Source of the DNA: Thuidium tamariscinum
Taxonomy: Eukaryota > Streptophyta > Bryopsida > Hypnales > Thuidiaceae
DNA: 64,000 nt
Assembly (NCBI GenBank): GCA_947034885.2
Contig: OX344753.2
Span: 26,738,347 to 26,802,346, forward strand
Reading direction: 5' to 3'
Shown here: one piece after another, positions 22,100 to 57,738 of the stretch
Layout: every line of letters starts with the position of its first letter
How positions within the stretch are numbered: the first letter of the stretch is position 1
The notes under the pieces: model-generated
What the model saw: only the letters and a program-made list of their open reading frames with translations
Told to the model about the DNA's origin: nothing
The model's database searches: none
Translations under genes and position numbers: made by a program

Positions 22100-23327
22100 T
22101 GTACAATGGGGTATCAATCAAAATGTCGTTTTCGAATTTGCAGTGAGAAAAATTTCAGTACTGCCAACTTTGAAAGCCTCCTGAGAGCTCAAAAATTGGT
22201 ATTTTACCACGAAAATTTTACTATAGCATCATCTTTAAGTTAATTATATGTATGCAAAATTTCAAGGCCAAAAGATTCACCGAAAAGAAGTTATTCAAAA
22301 TCTACCAACATGGGTAGTAGTGAGAAACATTTCACTACTTTCAACTTTGACACCTTCCTAAGGATTGAGTTTTTTTTCTTTTGCCATGAAATTTTTGTCA
22401 TGAAACAATATCTATGTATTTAATATGCATTAAAAATTTCAAGGTAAAAAAAGTTTTTTTTAAGAAGATATTTGAAATCTCCCAAGAGGTGTAGTTTTGA
22501 GAAAATTTTCACAATTGCCAACTTTGACACCCTCCCAAGGGCTGGAAAATTGGTTTCTTACCATGAATTTCTTTTTGTGAAGTCATCTCTATGTCGATAA
22601 TATGTGCTCCAAATTTCAAGTTCAAATGAATTACCAAAAAAAAGATATACAAAATTTCCCAACATGTGTAGTTGTGAGGAGGAGTTTTTGAGCCCTTAGT
22701 ATAGTGTTATTTTTTGGAGCAAAGTTTGACACAAATGTAAAAACTCAACCTCACAACTACACATGTTGAGAGATTTTGAATATCTTTTTTTGGATAAGTG
22801 TTTTGAACTTGAAATTTGGAACATATATTATCAACATAAAGTTGATCTTATTCAAAAAAATTCATGTTAAATAGACAAATTTTCAGCCCTTGGGAGGGTG
22901 TCAAAGTTGGCAATTGTGAAAATTTTCTCAAAACTACACCTATTGGGAGATTTCAAATATCTTCTTAAAAAAACTTTTTTTACCTTGAAATTTTTTATGC
23001 ATGTTAAATACATAGAGATTGTTTCATGAGAAAAATTTCATGGCAAAAGAAAAAAAACTCAATCCTTAGGAAGGTGTCAAAGTTGAAAGTGGTGAAATGT
23101 TTCTCATCACTACCCATGTTGGTAGATTTTGAATAACTTTTTTTCAGTGAATCTTTTGGCCTTGAAATTTGGCATACATATAATTAACTTAAAGATGATG
23201 TTGTAGTAAAAATTTCGTGATAAAATACCAATTTTTGAGCTCTCGGGAGGCTTTCAAAGTTGGCAATACCAAAAATTTTCTCACTGCGAATTCGAAAACG
23301 ACATTTTGATTGGTACCCCACTGTACA
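22100..23327. mobile_element. Fold-back element with 177-bp subrepeats, copy 1
   Basis: The ends are inverted copies of TGTACARTGGGGTAYCAATC, and similarity extends through TCGTTTTCGAATT. The arms meet near 22715. Within the left arm the motif AACTTTGA falls at 22166, 22343 and 22520. In the right arm its complement starts at 22901, 23077 and 23254. Successive copies are therefore 176-177 bp apart, and each arm is made of degenerate tandem units. There is no coding capacity. The layout matches fold-back elements (long inverted ends made of subrepeats), but a target duplication is not obvious. Confidence 0.8.
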
Positions 23328-27535: not shown

Positions 27536-30500
27536 ATGGTGATGGAGAACGGAATTGGTTACGAAAGTGAGCCATTCGAAGAGGAAAGCGATTTGAAGGA
27601 GAGTGAAGTAACTCAAGCTGTACAGGTTGCTTTAAACATAAGGCCTCTCATTGCGTTGGAGCAGGTTCAAGGATGCAAGGATTGTATAACAGTGATTCCT
27701 GGCGAACCTCAGGTAGACAGATTTCTATGTAGCTTAAGCTGAAAACTGCAGTACTTCTGAGGGTTCTAAGTATTCCCACACTCAAAATTACGGGAACTGG
27801 GTTGTTATTCTTACTATGATTCACCAGAAAACAGGGGTTTCTTATGCTTCGGTGCTCGTGTAACAGGTTCAAATTGGCAATCACTCTTTCACGTTTGACT
27901 ACATTTTCGGCAGAGCTGCGACACCATTGCCAGCAATTTTCAATAAATGTGTGAAACCACTGGTCGAAGGTTTATTCCACGGATACAATGCCACTGTCTT
28001 GGCATATGGACAGGTGCGTTGATACTTGCTAGTACTTCATTTAAGTGAAGTCCGGTCCGAACTTAACTTCTCTCCGGCAGGTTGCGAAATTACTTATACC
28101 ATGCGATAAGGACAAGTTGGATTTATCACAAGAACTCAATTAACTTGAAATATATCGATATTCTGTCATGTATTGTTTACTGGTTGCCTATATTTTGTGA
28201 AGTCGGCATTTTTCTCTTTTCAGACTGGATCTGGGAAAACATACACCATGGGAACTGGCTATACAATTGGGGGCAGCACTGAAGGAGTCATACCACAAGT
28301 CATGCAGACGATTTTTAAGAGAATCGAAACGCTTAAACATAAGGCTGATTTTCAGCTGCGAGTTTCATTCATTGAGGTATGTTTCTTCTTCAAACCTGAG
28401 GTTATAGAGCATTTTCGGGTCTCAATCAATGTCGTGTACCTCGGTTTGTACTTCTATCAGCTCGCAGTTGTGTCAACGAAGATGCCAAGTCTGGCATGAC
28501 AAGAATCATTTGTTTGACCTGGCTTCATACTCTAATTTTTTGACTTGCCTCTTAGTCAAAATTTGTTGTCAATCGGCCTGAGTCTTTTACCAGATAGTTC
28601 CACGTTGTGTTTGAGTTATTCTCTTAATGACATATGAGGTTCCCTTTAAAATGGAATTTACAGCTTTTATCCTCTAGACAATTTGTTCACAAATAATATT
28701 TCCCAGCTGCAATTTCATGACCACATAAGTAATTCCATACGTTCTGTTCCCGGTTCTGTTTAAAGCTGGATCTTGTTTTTTGTGTAGATACTTAAGGAGG
28801 AAATTCATGATCTGTTGGACCCGAATCCTCCATCAACAGAGTATATATTTGGAGGAGGATTGAAGGCATTAGCTGTTGGCAAGCCACTCATTCAAATTCG
28901 TGAGACTACTGCTGGAGGAATTACCTTGATGGGTGTGACAGAGGCTGACGTGAAAAGTTTGGAGGATATGACAGCCTACTTAGACCATGGCTCTCTGAGT
29001 CGTGCAACCGGAAGCACGAACATGAACTCCCACTCCAGGTCTGCTCTTGAGTTCTTTGTGAACAGAACTTTCCAATTATTTAAGATACAGAGTGTCAGTT
29101 CTCGTCGCCATGTTACCCTGTTAACAGTTCACGCCAACTCTCTAGATTTCATTTTTAATCAAGAGAAATATTTTATCTTTCGATCATAGCTGGTTGTTGA
29201 TGTTAGAGACTCTTCTTTCGTCGTGTTACAGTGCTCATTCCAACTTCAGAGTGTTTGTAACTAGAAGTTCGTCTCAAACCTCAGGATGTTGTTTATTTGG
29301 GTGCTTTCTTTATAAATATTGGAAACTTGTCCTTTAGACTTGACGTTGAGGAATGGATATCACCTGTCTGGTACAGCTGAGACGAGCGGATTGAATTGCA
29401 CGACTACATCTGGGGTTACGTTGCTAATTGTTGTCTTTGCGCGTGATGTGCAGTCGATCACATGCAATATTCACTATTACACTTGAGCAGCGCCGGAAAT
29501 GGGACCCACTTCCTGACGGTGGAAACCCTTCAGCTGAGGACTTTAATGAAGACTATTTGTGTGCGAAGTTGCATCTTGTAGATTTAGCTGGCTCGGAAAG
29601 GGCAAAGCGAACGGGAACTGATGGTCTTCGATTCAAAGAAGGTTTGCAGACATTACTGTATCCGACATTCATTTTTTTTCTTGCGGTGCAAATAGATTTG
29701 AATTCTCTTTTTGTGATTGCTTGCCGTGAGTACGATGTGAGGAAGGACTGCTAAATGAGGTATATTGTAATCTAGAGACCAGGTTATGAGTGTGAACATA
29801 GAAGTTCCTCCTCGAGTTTATGCGGTAAGAATTTATGTGTACAAATTCTTATGTATCTGTATATGTATGAAATTCAAAATTTATTCAGGTGTGCACATAA
29901 ACAGAGGCCTTCTAGCACTTGGAAATGTTATCAGTGCGTTGGGTGATGAAAAAAAGCGCAGGGAAGGAGGGCATGTTCCTTACCGGGACAGCAAGTTAAC
30001 ACGATTACTACAGGTGAGAGTGTACTAATTTCTGATTGGGATGCTGACTGTTTTTTGTGAGTCATAAGACCTTATTCAGTTCTCTTCGTGGTTCCTGTTC
30101 GGGACTTCTAATTCGTTGGATAGATTGGACTGAAATCCTACTTACGCATACTTTCTCGCTAAAGATTTCTAAAAGTTTTCTGTTGGTTGCAGGATTCTCT
30201 CGGAGGAAATAGCAGAACAGTTATGATTGGTGAGTATTGTGATGTATATCTTGTTAGGTTTTTATCAATGTCTATGTTGAATTATAATGCCTCCAACCAA
30301 TTCCTACTCGTACTTGTGTCTTGCAGCTTGTGTGAGCCCGCAGATGTAAATGCTGAAGAGTCCATCAATACCCTCAAGTATGCAAATAGAGCTCGGAACA
30401 TTCAGAATAAGCCGACAGTGAGTACCTCGTTGTCGAGTGACTTTCATAATCTTTGAAGCCTTTGCGATTATTTGAGATGTGAATTCTTTCATGCCGATAA

Positions 30501-33332: not shown

Positions 33333-35870
33333 AATATGATATATGTACTAAAGTATGGTAATGCATACACCATTGGATTTGTAATTAAACGATTAGCAAC
33401 TTTCATTTGAATGTCATATTAGGACCTAAACTTTACCATGCTCAAATACCACACCTCCTTCTAGAATATGTGACCATTTTGAAGCTTCTTGGACATGCGG
33501 TATGTGCAATAATGATCCAGATTGGATCCGGCTTAGCATGAGGACAAACTTCTGTTCCTAGTTTGTACCTCAATTTATGGACCTTCTATGTCAAAAACAC
33601 AAAAAACACAATGTTGCGTCTAAGTTCGTGCTCCTCCGACCTTTTCAAAGGATTGATCAGCAAGGGTTATCATTGCTCGCAGAAGCAACAAATTCTCAAG
33701 CTATTTCTTCACTAGCCTTGCCTTTTGTTTACTGGTTGAAGTTTCAATATAGCCGAAGGAATAGAAAATTGAGAGGAACCTCGTGCATTTCGGACAATAG
33801 AGGGGCCAAGAGTAAACTGAAGCTAACTCACTGTCACTTGGTATCAGCCCGAGTTCTTTAGCAGTAATGTTAGTAGTTCTGAAACATAATTTTAACGATC
33901 GTATGGACTCTAACAACTGCAATTATTGGTGATTCGAATTAAGTGCATCTTGTGTATTTCCCGATTCAATCCTTTGTTCTGCTGCTCACGATAACTCAGT
34001 TTCCTGCTCAGATGTATAGGCTCTTAGATTCCTATGGTATAGGACTTCATGTGATGCTGAGCTTCTTCATACTGGTTGCATGTGCAGGAATTCATTCCAA
34101 GGACTCTTCTGTATAGGTGCTTCTCGTTTCATTGTCTTATTTCCTTTCTATTCATTTGAACGTATTTTTTTCTGATTAGGTATGTGGATATTTTGCATAG
34201 CTTGCCTAAACCTTTCTGTGATTAATGATTCTAAAATCTCTGTGGTTAAGATATATATATTAGCTTTGGGGGCTCATTTAAACTCTGCCAGGTGATTGAA
34301 CGTTCAGTAGGGACGCCTCTGCAAAGCAGTTGGAAGGATTAGTCGGATCAAATTCTGGAGATGGCATTGAATTTCCAATGGTCGACCTCGTGTAAAATAG
34401 AGCATGTAACTGTAAGTACTATGAGATCCATGTTGTACTTATACAGGTTTTAAACTGTGGATGTGATACCGTTTGATTCGTTCCCATTTATATCTCTCGT
34501 TGGCCTGACGCAATCATGAATCAATTGAGAAAGATTTGTGAAGAATGAGCTAGTAGCGATATGTGCTGTGCGTATTTCAAAAAGAATAACTTGATACAGT
34601 GGTGCAGCCAAAACTTGTAGCTTGCGAAGGTGAGTCAGCATCAATGGATATACTCCTGATGAGGAGTAAATACCAGGTAGGCAGTTCACAGACTGGTTAC
34701 GTTTCCCTTTGAAAGCCCTAGTTTTTTTTATCTGATAATCTGCTCCAGTTCCGACCATTCAAGTCCAAATCATTCCAGTCATAGGCTTCTTGATACCTTG
34801 CTATAAGCGCATGTAAGAATCTTTTGAAACTACATTCTAACTTTTCTAGACAAATAGGAATGGGTGGGAAGAGTTGAAGATTATGTTTGATTCTATTCTT
34901 ATCGGTTCCAGTGCACTTTTTGCTCTGCAGCTCTGCACTAGCTCTATCTTCTCAGACTTGGGGGAATTTGAAACTCAGATATTGAGTTCCGAAGGTTATG
35001 AAGACGAGAGTAAATTGCCAAGTCAATGCTTAATCAAGTTTTTTTTGTACCAACAACTATGACTGCTTTGGGGAGTTGGATACAAAAGCCCAATAGTGAC
35101 ATTTTAAGAATATGAATCTTAATTGCGAGCTATTTAGTCTTCTTGGCCGTTAGTATTTTGTACAGTAATTGACTGTTAATTTGCGTATTGAGCAGAGTTG
35201 CTCGAAGTGTGTAGGGAGGCCATTCATGCACTCTGAAGTGGCATCCTGATGTTGAAAGAAATATCTTGAAAGGAAGTACATAATGTAACATAAGGATAGA
35301 ATAGGTGAGTAGTGGAGCAAACCTTTACTCAATTCTAGTTGTAGAAATGCCTTTCTCAATGCTCAATTTCCAGTCGATGGATCTGGCCAAAATCTGAAGC
35401 ATCAAATTTGTTTGCTTGGATATTGGTTTACTGTAAAATGTTGAATGGGATATCAATTACATGTGTTCTTGATGATCTATGTGAATTGCTGATTTTGTTT
35501 GCTTTTTTGATTCCAAGATGTTCATTTGATCCTTCAAAGGATAAGATAGTAGCCATAGAAATCATCCCTTTTGGATGTCTTGTACAGTATTTTGACTTCC
35601 AATGAGTGCTTTTGGAACTTTTAAACCAACTATTAACAAAAGATTTTGGAGAATAAAAGTTGCACTTTTGTCCTATGTATGAAGATTCTTTGTCATTCAT
35701 TGACCAAAATATGGTTGTGTTGTTTGTGGGTTAAATGTTTAACCTCACAACATCTAAGAAGCTAAAATACTACTTTTGGATGACATTCAAAGCCATCTAG
35801 AGAATCAAATTTTCATCCAATTTATTTTGTGGTGATCTACTTGCTCTTTCTTCTTGTTGTTTGTTGTACA
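33333..35870. other. Downstream of the kinesin; no recognised gene
   Basis: This is searched for the missing kinesin tail without success. Open frames at 33577-33861 (+) and 34450-34758 (-) have no recognisable domain and no coiled-coil character. Composition stays closer to genic DNA until about 35100, so it may be a long 3' UTR or decayed coding sequence. Confidence 0.4.
35580..35705. repeat. Dispersed repeat fragment shared with 25680-25800
   Basis: It contains TTTGACTTCCAATGAGT followed by the inverted form of the GGACAAAA.TGCAAC / AATGACAAAG block seen at 25680-25800. Confidence 0.55.
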
Positions 35871-35874
35871 ATGG

Positions 35875-37249
35875 GGTAAATTCGCAGTAAGAAAAATTTC
35901 AATACTACCAACTTTGGAAGCCTCCAGAGAGCTCAAAAATTGGTATTTTATCACGAAATTTTTACTACAGCATCATCTTTAAGTTAATTATATGTATGCA
36001 AAATTTCAAGGCCAAAAGATTCACCGAAAAAAAGTTATTCAAAATCTACCAACATGGGTAGTAGTGAGAAACATTTCACTACTTTCAACTTTGACACCTT
36101 CCTAAGGATTGAGTTTTTTTTCTTTTGCCATGAAATTTTTGTCATGAAACAATCTCTATGTTTTTAATACGCATAAAAAATTTCAAGTTAAAAAAAGTTT
36201 TTTTTAAGAAGATATTTGAAATCTCCCAAGAGGTGTAGTTTTGAGAAAATTTTCACAATTGCCAACTTTGACACCCTCCCAAGGGCTGAAAAATTGGTTT
36301 CTTACCATGAAATTCTTTCTGTGAAGTCATCTCTATGTCAATAATATGCTGTCCAAATTTCAAGTTCAAATGAATTACCAAAAAAAAGATATACAAAATC
36401 TCCCAACATGTGTAGTTTTGAGGAGGAGTTTTTGAGCCCTTAGTATAGTGTTATTTTGTGGAGCAAAGTTTGACACAAATGTAAAAACTCAACCTCACAA
36501 CTACACATGTTGAGAGATTTTGAATATCTTTTTTTAAATAAGTGTTTTGAACTTGAAATTTGAAACATATATTATGAACATAAAGTTGATCTTATTCAAA
36601 AAATTTCATGTTAAATAGACAAATTTTCAGCCCTTGGGAGGGTGTCAAAGTTGGCAATTGTGAAAATTTTCTCATGACTACACATGTTGGGAGATTTTGT
36701 ATATCTTTTTTTTGGTAATTCATTTGAACTTGAAATTTGGACAGCATATTATTGACATAGAGATGACTTCACAGAAAGAATTTCATGGTAAGAAACCAAT
36801 TTTTCAGCCCTTGGGAGGGTGTCAAAGTTGGCAATTGTGAAAATTTTCTCAAAACTACACCTCTTGGGAGATTTCAAATATCTTCTTAAAAAAAACTTTT
36901 TTTAACTTGAAATTTTTTATGCATATTAAAAACATAGAGATTGTTTCATGAGAAAAATTCTATGGCAAAAGAAAAAAAACTCAATCCTTAGGAAGGTGTC
37001 AAAGTTGAAAGTAGTGAAATGTTTCTCACCACTACCCATGTTGGTAGATTCTGAATAACTTTTTTTTGGTGAATCTTTTGGCCTTGAAATTTGGCATACG
37101 TATAATCAATTTAAATATAATGATGTAGTAAAAATTTCGTGGTAAAATACCAATTTTTGAGCTCTCTGGAGACTTTCAAAGTTGGCAATACTAAAAAAAA
37201 ATTCATTGCAAATTCGAAAACGACATTTTGATTGGTACCCCACTGTACA
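35875..37249. mobile_element. Fold-back element with 177-bp subrepeats, copy 2
   Basis: Second copy of the element at 22100-23327. The left end TGTACAATGGGGTA is followed by a deletion of about 23 bases relative to copy 1. The right end is intact. Left-arm motifs AACTTTG lie at 35910, 36087 and 36264. Right-arm complements start at 36645, 36822, 36999 and 37176. All spacings are exactly 177 bp. The right arm therefore has one unit more than in copy 1, which accounts for most of the 147-bp length difference. Confidence 0.82.
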
Positions 37250-46200: not shown

Positions 46201-48720
46201 GAATTGGGGGTTTCTTAATAGCATATGTTCATATATTGTTAATTTGGAAACCCGAAATAATGTAAGAATTTATGAAACGTCCACTTCGAAGGAGTAAATT
46301 ATTTACAGTTATTTCTTACAAACATCCCTATCATCCATGAGTACCCGCCATGCTTTCTGGTTTCCAATGGTGTATTTTACAACCTTTGTATATTGTTCTT
46401 ATTTGATTCGTTTCAACTCCCAAAGATATTGATCATGTAGGCCATAAGGGTTACTCGTGAAAGCAATATAGATTAATGGTTTGCTTCCCTCTTCTGCCTA
46501 TGATTTCTGTGCTTTCATTCCTCTTAATTTTGGACAATGTTGGAACTTGGCCCAGGAGGGGAGGGGAAAAGTATGAAAAATTGGAGGGCTCAGATCATGC
46601 TCCTGTTTACGTGCATTTGAGAACACAACCACCTTTAGACCAACATGATGTGCCCCCCCTTGCAGCTCGTTTCATGCCAGAACTTCGAGGTCGGCAGCAA
46701 AGTATTGGTAAGCTTTCGAATTGGCGCAGTGGATATCTACCATTTGATTCTCAAGCTAATGCGGTGGATGAATTACGTCCTGTGCCATAGTCAGTTTCAG
46801 AAATTTGAAATTTGAAGATCTGTTCGAAGTGAATTCATCCTTTAGACGCACTGTCTGGGAAGTCCCGACTGCAAGTCGAATGATTTGCCCGATTTACCAT
46901 GAAAACAGTGTCCAAAATGAGAAAGAAATGTCTATTGATAATTGGGAATACAGTCAAGGCTCTGTAAGTACACATTCCTAGTATTTCCTGGGGATATATT
47001 ATGTTGTGTTCACATCTGATTGGGCAACTTCCACATTTCAAGTTGTGAACACATGTGACAGGAGCCCATTTTTGCCCCTCCGCTGCACAGTGCAATTAAG
47101 AGAGGTTTGAGTAAAGATGGGATAACGGAGCGTATCATTAAATGACTGGTTGGTATTGAAAAGATAGATTTCTGACAGAATTTTCTCAAATACTTATGGT
47201 CTCAGTTTGAATTTGCACTTACGGAGACCTGGGCTGGTCGTGCAGTATCCTTATTACAGAAAAGACCTGCCGGGAGTGAGTTCACTGAGATCAAGTCATG
47301 CTCTGAGATGAAGGAAGTGAAGCTTAAAACATCGCCGTCTACAGCTACTCTTGTGAAGAAGAATATGATGAAGACGACGACGAAGATTGATTCCCAAAAG
47401 GGTAAACAGAAGAACCTTCGGTCATTCTTCATGCCTCCAGCAGCAGCCAAAGGGAAGGAGAACACTGAGGGTGTGAGCACAGTCTCTGAACCTTCAGACT
47501 CGGAAACTCTTGTGAAAACCAGTTTAGTACAAGGAGACGACCAACATTGTACTCCTTTATTCCTTGCTGATGATTCTAGTGCTTCGCAAATTTTTTCAAG
47601 TGGTAATATCCTGCCACTGTCGACCAGCCAAGCTATCAATGAGGAGGATCCTGTTGACTGGTCTCAGAGTACCAGCACAAGTGAACTGGAGAAGAGTAGT
47701 TTCGAAACAAGCACGAACTTAGCAGCGAAAGCTGAATGGCAAAGAATTCAGAAGACCATGAAGAGGGTCCCTATGTGCTCAGGCCACAATGAGCCATGTG
47801 CTGTACGGGTAGTGAAGAAGGCAGGTCCTAACCTCGGAAGAACTTTCCACTGCTGTGCTCGAGCTCAGGTACGGTCTCCCATCTTCTTTTTTTTCATTTT
47901 TTATGAAGTTCCAAAGTGGTGCTCCAAATTTCAACATTCATCTACATATTAAATAGAAAATATCACATTCATACATATCACATGTCTATAATTATGTTTT
48001 CATCCACAACTTGGCGATTTCATCCAAGATTTATTTTAGTTTGAGTTTTCTGGCGATAAATCTCACAAGTTTTTGCCATTTTTTAGCCAGATTATTTTTT
48101 TCTGGTGCAATCTGGCACCAGAAAGCCAAAAAAGACCCTGGCGCCAATATAAAACAATTGAATTGCCTTGAGTAGTAAGTTTGCAGTTTTGGCCAAGTAA
48201 ACTAGCTGTGCCACTATGTAGTAATGGTCTGAGTCCGGGGTTTGAAGTGCTAATCTGCCTTCCCAAAGTAAGTAGGATGAAGTCACCAACCTAGAAAGCC
48301 CAACTCCCCCATTCGTGACCTTTCCAGTAGCAGGTGTGGGCACGAAATTAGTTGTTAGCTTCCAATTTACTTTCTTCATTTTATGTAATTTGGACCACGG
48401 CTGTGATGGCGGGCTAGCAATTGTTGCAATCCTTTCAATTGGTTCCAAGTGGACTGATCCATTGATTCTGTCAATTAATGGGCAACTGTATTTTAAATGC
48501 CACACTCGATAGAATGAGGAGTGTAACAAACGAACCTTAATGCCCCAGTTATCCAATTGGAGCCACTTGGATGGTGCGTTGGATTGTGGATGGTTCCGTT
48601 AAGAGTTGCTAAGCTTTTGAGAGGTGGATGTGTATGCAGGGCCCATCTTCAAATCCTGAGGCCAGGTGTGACTACTTTGAGTGGAATGCTCCTACCAAGG
48701 GGCAAAGTAGGAGAACTTAA
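43236..48720 (+). CDS. APE2: AP endonuclease 2 (DNA 3'-phosphodiesterase/exonuclease)
   Basis: A nuclear DNA-repair enzyme of the exonuclease III fold that trims blocked 3' ends and works with PCNA. Exons: 43236-43343, 43919-44030, 44225-44287, 44549-44704, 44851-44936, 45098-45213, 45409-45489, 45735-45956, 46556-46707, 46791-46963, 47062-47110, 47246-47868, 48640-48720; about 673 residues. Catalytic residues are in place: YNINGLR (N8), ETK (E37), NLYGP, GDFN (D193, N195), GSRID and SDH (D328, H329). A PCNA-binding box QKNLRSFF lies at 494-501. The C-terminal GRF zinc finger (about 616-665) shows C617, H620, C624, C642 and [15 protein letters not shown]. The join of exons 11 and 12 is the least certain, chosen because GAGTAAAG and TCGTGCAG keep the frame. 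Exons 10 and 11 encode poorly conserved linker. The gene appears intact. Confidence 0.93.
43686..43702 (+). promoter_or_regulatory. Telobox-like TTTAGGG repeat in APE2 intron 1
   Basis: TTTAGGGTTTAGGGTTA contains more than two units of the plant telomere repeat. Teloboxes near plant gene starts bind MYB-related and TRB proteins and are common in genes active in dividing cells. Here it sits in the first intron, about 340 bases after the first exon. It may equally be a chance interstitial telomere repeat. Confidence 0.5.
46161..46176. repeat. AATTT microsatellite in APE2 intron 9
   Basis: Three tandem copies of TTAAT form a short pentanucleotide tract in the intron that follows the exon ending at 45956. 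Confidence 0.7.
47920..48140. repeat. Dispersed repeat inside the last APE2 intron
   Basis: This part of the 771-base intron matches 57100-57330: CTCCAAATTTCAACATTCAT against TTCCAAATCTCAACATTCAT, then TTTTCATCCA, GCGATTTCATCCA, and a GGTGCAAT..GGCACC palindromic core. The family is diverged and has no coding capacity. Its presence shows repeat insertion within the APE2 transcription unit without disturbing exons. Confidence 0.6.
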
Positions 48721-57330: not shown

Positions 57331-57479
57331 CATTGGCTTTCACATTTCTATAAAAAAAAAATCTCAATGGTAGATGATAGCACTAGGTGTTTTTTCAAAC
57401 CATGAAGACTATTTCTAGAGTGTTCCCCAAGCTATGAACCAATATACCATTGGCTAGATTTATAAATAATACATTTTTA

Positions 57480-57600
57480 AACTAATAAATAATAAATAAT
57501 AAATAATAATAATGAAATAATTATAAAATTATGAAATTATAAATAATAATAATAATAATATATATTTTAAATTTTAATTAATAATAATAAATAATAATAA
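57480..57600. repeat. AAT-rich microsatellite
   Basis: Runs of AAT and AAAT units are interrupted by short AT tracts. A shorter ATA run lies at 58403-58428. Confidence 0.8.
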
Positions 57601-57738
57601 AATAAAAAATTTAGAAATATTATTTGATGTAGCAATCTCTCAATAACATCAAATTTCTAATGTGCCAAAGGTTCCAATCAATTGTAAGTAAAGGGATTTT
57701 TTTCTCCATTTTCTTACAGATATTTTTTCTTATCATAG

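Follow-up and report, generated by a model that had tools for sequence, protein, structure and literature searches.

Mirror-image arms evolve together in a probably Tc1-like fold-back transposon family of the moss Thuidium tamariscinum

The window, a stretch of 64 kb from the genome of Thuidium tamariscinum, had been predicted from its letters to hold a terminally inverted element at 22100-23327, with arms built from units repeating at a 176-177-bp step. The anchor AACTTTGA starts at 22166, 22343 and 22520 and its complement TCAAAGTT at 22901, 23077 and 23254, just where the original prediction had placed them. The ends are inverted as claimed, with outer arms (22100-22460 and 22967-23327) that are complementary at 94%; the inner arms (22431-22689 and 22739-22997) are 85% complementary. 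Self-comparison for 177-bp off-diagonals, the check that had been set for the repeat, gave a signal well above that at other lags. For the left arm, lags of 177 and 354 give self-identities of 0.63 and 0.64 (z of about 9), the mean over all lags tried being 0.28; for the right arm the values are 0.65 at lag 353 (z 10) and 0.49 at lags 176 and 177 (z 5.4). A fold-back thus lies within the predicted interval, but the element itself, here E1, is confined to 22104-23323, the remainder being the TA plus the flanking TG/CA. Its order is TIR A B C loop D' B' A' TIR', where TIR is the terminal inverted repeat and the primed units lie on the right arm:

22102-22103, no strand: left target duplication TA (in TGTACA), from the boundary and the TA statistics of the family
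22104-22143, plus strand: left terminal inverted repeat, beginning CAATGGGGTATCAATCAAAATG, from genome-wide TIR matches
22144-22320, plus strand: unit A of the left arm, from unit alignment and mapping
22321-22497, plus strand: unit B of the left arm, from unit alignment and mapping
22498-22678, plus strand: unit C of the left arm, from unit alignment and mapping
22679-22749, plus strand: loop, from arm alignment, fold and unit mapping
22750-22927, minus strand: unit D' of the right arm, 97.2% identical to D' of E2 and 83-85% to C units
22928-23106, minus strand: unit B' of the right arm, 96.6% identical to B of E1
23107-23283, minus strand: unit A' of the right arm, 92.1% identical to A of E1
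23284-23323, minus strand: right terminal inverted repeat, ending CCCCACTG, from the sequence
23324-23325, no strand: right target duplication TA, from the sequence

A second fold-back copy, E2, which the original prediction had missed, lies 13 kb downstream at 35869-37245 with the order TIR A B C loop D' C' B' A' TIR'. Relative to E2, the D-side arm of E1 is without one C. The parts of E2 are as follows:

35867-35868, no strand: left target duplication TA, from the sequence
35869-35889, plus strand: left terminal inverted repeat with a 21-bp internal deletion, from comparison with E1
35890-36422, plus strand: left arm with units A, B and C, from unit alignment and mapping
36423-36493, plus strand: loop, from unit mapping
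36494-37197, minus strand: right arm with units D', C', B' and A', the commonest plan of the family, from unit alignment and mapping
37198-37245, minus strand: right terminal inverted repeat, from the sequence
37246-37247, no strand: right target duplication TA, from the sequence

A scan of the window in sliding 540-bp blocks (lags 100-259, identity above 0.5) found the 177-bp periodicity at E1 and E2 only. Tandem Repeats Finder reported 3.4 copies of 177 bp at 36494-37094, inside E2, and did not report E1. Folded as RNA, E1 is predicted to form a single long stem at -831.8 kcal/mol, and E2 a long stem except at the centre and at the truncated TIR end, at -879 kcal/mol; both are absolute energies, without a shuffled baseline. 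No open reading frame of at least 120 aa overlaps either element, and Rfam gave no match at the gathering score over the whole window. Elsewhere in the window, open reading frames match a kinesin motor (28815-29186, 2.3e-07) and a GRF zinc-finger (47308-47949, 1e-07), and a low-complexity tract of impure TAA/ATAAATA occupies 57462-57610.

Alignment of the 13 units of E1 and E2 revealed four fixed types, A, B, C and D, that are not interchangeable, a division unnoticed in the original prediction. Identity between types is 57-78%, with the exception of C and D (82-85%), and the same type in the two elements is 88-97% identical. The possibility that the TIR is itself a partial unit was rejected, as the E1 TIR and the unit ends agree in phase at only 18 and 15 of 44 positions.

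We searched the assembly (363 Mb in 19 contigs) for the family, as had been proposed, and found many dispersed fold-back copies with TA on both sides. The assembly also has 22 matches to LOB, a family of land plants, against none in any of 14 control genomes, and its 11 large contigs and AT-rich spacers would suit a moss. A 24-base TIR pattern with up to two mismatches gave 938 and 887 matches on the two strands, 1825 in all, and therefore roughly 900 copies in the genome; the reversed pattern gave 0 and 0 on the same assembly. With E1 as the query, there were at least 130 matches among the 40 of 1911 first-look candidates that were scored. The TIR pattern was absent (0 and 0) from a viral and a genome contig collection, as expected of a eukaryotic element. 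For the unit plans we used 58 elements, that is, mapped loci with duplicates dropped and with A and B on both arms; they were not drawn at random, since 41 come from loci (L039-L078) picked as good E1 matches. The commonest plan, TIR-A-B-C-loop-D'-C'-B'-A'-TIR' (ABC/ABCD), accounts for 35 of the 58 and the E1 plan (ABC/ABD) for 16, so that D is one-sided in both commonest plans (51 copies). Three are ABC/ABC, and ABCD/ABCD, ABCD/ABC, ABD/ABD and ABC/ABCCCD occur once each. Of the 14 elements reached through TIR matches on contig C1, 11 have the plan ABC/ABCD and a single one has ABC/ABD, which makes the E1 plan the rarer one. With long TIRs holding tandem subrepeats, the family has the character of the fold-back class. 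As a MITE, a short, non-coding, high-copy element moved in trans, it would be a borderline case: no open reading frame of at least 120 aa overlaps E1 or E2 and there are roughly 900 copies, but elements of 1.2-1.4 kb with 0.5-kb arms are long for a MITE.

Several loci show more complex arrangements. At L057 (C6:12828000-12834500) three fold-back elements abut, neighbours sharing single TAs. At C1:6942350-6948717 (L030, L080 and L031) two family members are mutually inverted, one of them within an older diverged relative, and in L030 the D unit sits across the loop, opposite its usual side. A diverged cousin adjoins a family member at L068:2430-3501, with a TIR like TAGTAGGGTACAAGTCAAAATGG; its units are more diverged, and the unit family therefore seems older than the present element.

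TA is present at both ends in 52 of 54 TIR pairs. No pair (0 of 54) carries a duplication of 3 bp or more at the TA boundary, and shifting the boundary out by 1-6 bases gave no clear longer duplication (top excess 2 against 0.2 expected). The 7-10-bp target site duplication of Mutator-like or P-superfamily elements was likewise found in 0 of 54, whether at the TA boundary itself or after removal of 1-6 bases. Outside the TA there is a preference for TG read inward, with G at 117 and T at 110 of 125 ends, which could be a target preference or a part of the TIR. A duplicated TGTACA is disfavoured by the 15 of 54 pairs whose two sides differ there. In one case an element lies inside an older relative, and by eye, taking out one TA keeps the units of the host in phase.

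The two arms were compared over their first 460 bases in 53 of the 58 elements; the five excluded (E2, L018, L081, L084 and one of the three at L057) have no recognised TIR unit on both arms. In this set of 53, the arms belonging to a single copy evolve in concert, each unit with its mirror counterpart. Their divergence is 4.3% within a copy, as against 8.7-8.9% between copies, and none of 5000 random re-pairings of arms was as low. The nearest D-side arm was the copy's own partner in 39 of 53 and another in 14, and no alignment column had a different majority base in the two arms. Four-way site counts gave 28511 same-element, 1243 same-side and 832 cross patterns, the cross pattern (the opposite diagonal) being the control for parallel change; these counts are not independent, because the copies share ancestry. 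Of the 1243 same-side sites, 526 fall in the final part of the alignment, in which D of the E1-type copies is set against C. In a FastTree analysis of the 106 arms, 44 of 46 cherries paired the arms of a single copy (support was at least 0.9 in 34), compared with a mean of 0.43 and a maximum of 4 over 2000 label shuffles. The remaining two cherries join L030 and L031, the inverted neighbours.

Changes private to one copy are in accord with this pattern for substitutions and less so for indels. There are 71 private substitutions in both arms and 160 in one; shuffled partners gave a mean of 1.42 doubled substitutions and a maximum of 11 (200 shuffles), and 36 of 53 copies have at least one. Only 4 private indels are in both arms and 36 are in one, which counts against arm rewriting. 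E1 and E2 alone give a weak signal of rewriting (same-side 7, same-element 6, cross 3), and in unit A their left-to-left likeness exceeds the likeness of arm to arm. Mean within-copy divergence is 0.046-0.060 in columns 0-180 and 0.024-0.040 in columns 180-480. The outer arm is somewhat less uniform, as would be expected if copying began close to the loop, but the change along the arm is uneven.

A natural tracer of the process is found in L084, outside the 53-copy set. A 273-bp insert at L084:180-452 is present, identical, at mirror positions in both arms, which are 99.4% alike over 853 bp. Its junction occurs exactly twice in the assembly, both times in L084. It is not credible that the insert arrived twice, independently and at one and the same mirror base, so that one arm must have been copied from the other, and a fold-back sequencing artefact is disfavoured because the two flanks of L084 differ. 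Short-read polishing might falsely blend arms and could hardly produce this insert. The insert is flanked by TTA/TAT, suggestive of a TA duplication of its own, and has the inverted ends AGGTAGGTACA...TGTACCTACCT; it may be a member of another small element family.

The likeness of arms would also be accounted for if each fold-back had been made anew by snap-back copying of a one-armed progenitor, with no rewriting of inherited arms. Such copying likewise predicts arms that are alike within a copy and unlike between copies, and a short inverted sequence does lie beside the loop (TGAGG..GAGTTTTT). However, 35 of the 58 elements agree in one asymmetry, C being present in both arms and D in a single arm, and 16 agree in a second; independent events would need identical skipping of D every time. 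The private substitutions, 71 doubled and 160 not, are moreover what is expected of piecemeal rewriting after dispersal. We therefore regard repeated snap-back as unlikely. Rewriting of existing arms is the preferred reading, and the shared asymmetry of D indicates that most copies inherited a two-armed structure and that the rewriting came later.

The family ends in CARTGGGG...CCCCAYTG, which we count as the 5'-CAGT...ACTG-3' ends of Tc1-like elements; CAGT stands at the right ends of E1 and E2 and CAAT at their left ends, and both forms occur among the copies listed. The DDE_3 transposase domain (PF13358) has 48 matches in the assembly, with all 67 candidates scored, and also matches 3 of 14 control genomes. 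One of these matches lies between C cores, in a relative at C1:18460064-18463676 (3613 bp including both TAs) that was pieced together from three stretches (L091, L089 and L092). Its TIRs match the pattern at 21 of 24 positions at both ends, its first unit is A-like (84%), and further units, 76-80% like those of E1 and E2, follow at a pitch of about 185 bp. Its arms are 99.6% alike over 238 bp in the outer stretches and 98.8% over 671 bp in the inner ones. The middle holds pieces that match HTH_Tnp_Tc3_2 (1.6e-13) and DDE_3 (1.2e-10), the first of which also matches Sleeping Beauty (5cr4, 5.7e-12). The pieces are not in one open frame, and the transposase is broken. This middle lacks TACAGT and ACTGTA and, the arms apart, its inverted repeats do not exceed 11 bp, so there is no sign in it of another, nested Tc1-like element. 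The transposase was thus found in this one relative, as two pieces, and none was seen in E1 or E2. The TA flanks, together with a relative that encloses a Tc1-like transposase, point to a Tc1-like family with greatly lengthened TIRs. E1 is non-autonomous, and E1 and E2 would be non-autonomous Tc1-like members, presumably moved by a Tc1-like transposase supplied in trans.

The transposase region of L089 has at least 45 matches in the assembly (40 of 41 candidates scored), of which 12 are 750 bp or longer; one of the matches was examined for fold-back ends. A second enclosed transposase, considered at C1:18472036 onward, was rejected, since L090 (1001 bp of its middle) has no likeness to that of L089. 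L079 (C1:9823000-9828250) was rejected as the autonomous form: its unit C is interrupted by about 3.9 kb that includes open stretches of 312 and 307 codons, and about 5 bp of the unit is repeated on either side, as for a nested insert.

Pogo elements also duplicate TA, and their DDE_1 domain is abundant in this genome, with at least 150 matches among the 150 of 303 first-look candidates that were scored. A pogo-like transposase is nonetheless quite improbable as the mover of the family. In the four DDE_1 loci read, the best TIR match covers 15 of 24 positions, no better than in L089, a stretch without TIR ends, and it is a Tc1-like transposase that sits within the arms of the relative. At L085 (C6:5908700-5913000) and L086 (C2:16334500-16338800), two related open frames, 568 and 593 codons long, match DDE_1, and the sequence read around them shows no clear terminal repeats; they are perhaps domesticated pogo-type genes.

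The unit plan ABC/ABCD places a mirror pair and a tandem pair in the same element, and the two behave differently. In the 35 copies with this plan, mirror C/C' gave 4689 same-element and 23 cross patterns, with a divergence of 2.3% within a copy and 6.9% between copies. In contrast, tandem C/D gave 212 and 242, and the divergence is 18.7% both within and between copies; in these 35 copies the tandem neighbours C and D are not co-evolving. Since the mirror units are homogenised and the C/D neighbours are not, the comparison points to inverted pairing, and not tandem nearness, as the driver of concerted evolution. The low likeness of C and D (19% divergence) may also bar exchange, besides their arrangement.

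These data bear on the suggestion in the original prediction that the element could link transposons to satellite birth, an ordinary 177-bp satellite being captured by, or escaping from, a mobile element, as has been described by the Tetris route in Drosophila virilis (PMC4079207, in the part available). A C/D core has 4212 matches in the genome and none when reversed, more than the roughly 2700 expected from 1825 TIR matches at 1.5 per arm, and one arm of L059 carries C three times over, with no difference between two of these units across the 177 bp compared. Diverged older relatives and B units passing the mismatch limit may lie behind the excess. Against this, an A core has 1716 matches (none reversed), about one per end when set beside the 1825 TIRs, and a unit is tandemly multiplied in 1 of the 58 mapped elements. 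When six C units served as the query and 40 of 1552 candidates were scored, the longest array in the assembled sequence had 6 units; that one lies inside L059, three others have about 5 units, and the rest have 4 or fewer. Among the matches listed for contig C1, perfect C cores never stand in runs longer than two. The long, homogenised head-to-tail arrays of a satellite were thus not seen among the scored candidates or in the C/D comparison, and satellite birth is highly improbable here. The nearness of 177 bp to nucleosome or centromere-satellite length may be no more than a numerical coincidence. E1 and E2 lie within 13 kb of each other in the window, but it is hardly credible that they arose by local segmental duplication of a unique hairpin and not by transposon insertion, given that their likeness ends at the TIR on both sides with no shared flanks, that about 1825 ends are spread genome-wide, and that the flanks vary over 54 element pairs with the TA nearly constant.

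We conclude, with a probability of about 0.84, that E1 and E2 belong to a high-copy non-autonomous Tc1-like transposon whose TIRs have grown into arms of three to four 177-bp units and whose arms have been mutually rewritten. The repeated units may have begun as extra transposase-binding sites, by analogy with a proposal made for Galileo. The arms would be rewritten in place through gene conversion or polymerase template switching, most likely by pairing as a hairpin or cruciform in which one arm templates the other, as analogous systems suggest.

Parts of this picture are already known, as judged from the available portions of the papers cited: the anatomy from Tetris and some Galileo subfamilies, and within-copy TIR likeness from Galileo (PMC2775673). 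Tetris is a non-autonomous fold-back element with target site duplications of 8-10 bp, for which its authors suggested Mutator; its long TIRs hold AT-rich tandem repeats of about 220 bp that vary in number between alleles, and these repeats make satellite-like arrays of up to 66 copies (PMC4079207). The E1 family, on the other hand, has TA and a Tc1-like link, and no array above 6 units was found. Galileo of Drosophila, of the P superfamily and with a 7-bp duplication, has long TIRs with tandem repeats of about 210 bp in some subfamilies; in each of two non-chimeric copies the paired TIRs agree at more than 99% of positions, and about 7% separates the TIRs of one copy from those of the other. 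Proposals made for Galileo include recombination and conversion, and tandem repeats serving as extra transposase-binding sites, whereas the available text contains no contrast of mirror with tandem units and no measurement of conversion over many copies (PMC2775673, PMC3573991). PpTc1 and PpTc2 of the moss Physcomitrella patens share the 5'-CAGT...ACTG-3' ends and the TA duplication and encode a Tc1-like transposase with helix-turn-helix domains, but they are described, in the accessible part of the report, as elements of 1584 and 1709 bp with 33-bp TIRs and without fold-back arms or internal tandem units (PMC4054914). In yeast, template switching homogenises the arms of inverted repeats and sometimes inverts the spacer, which may be compared with the D unit across the loop in L030; those repeats, as far as the available text goes, are short and lie in coding genes, unlike a dispersed transposon with mirror and tandem units (PMC8604942). 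Our search of the literature, largely without subscription papers, came upon neither this family nor the contrast of mirror with tandem units. A Tc1-like fold-back of such a kind, and the measured contrast, appear to be new.

The family indicates that an element of the Tc1-like kind, whose TIRs are normally short, is able to turn into a fold-back and reach roughly 900 copies. One element offers mirror partners up to about 1.2 kb apart together with tandem neighbours 177 bp apart, and the contrast between the two is a natural system replicated over 35-53 copies; the many insertions are ready material for measuring conversion rates and tract lengths. More tentatively, and in our view rather doubtfully, the rewriting of arm by arm could be a part of the life cycle of the transposon, with the arms pairing in replication, excision or gap repair. 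If that were true, the element would keep its ends matched and would double foreign inserts, with its tandem repeats left to diverge; this would amount to a Tc1-like transposon that proof-reads itself and records mirror conversion across the genome.
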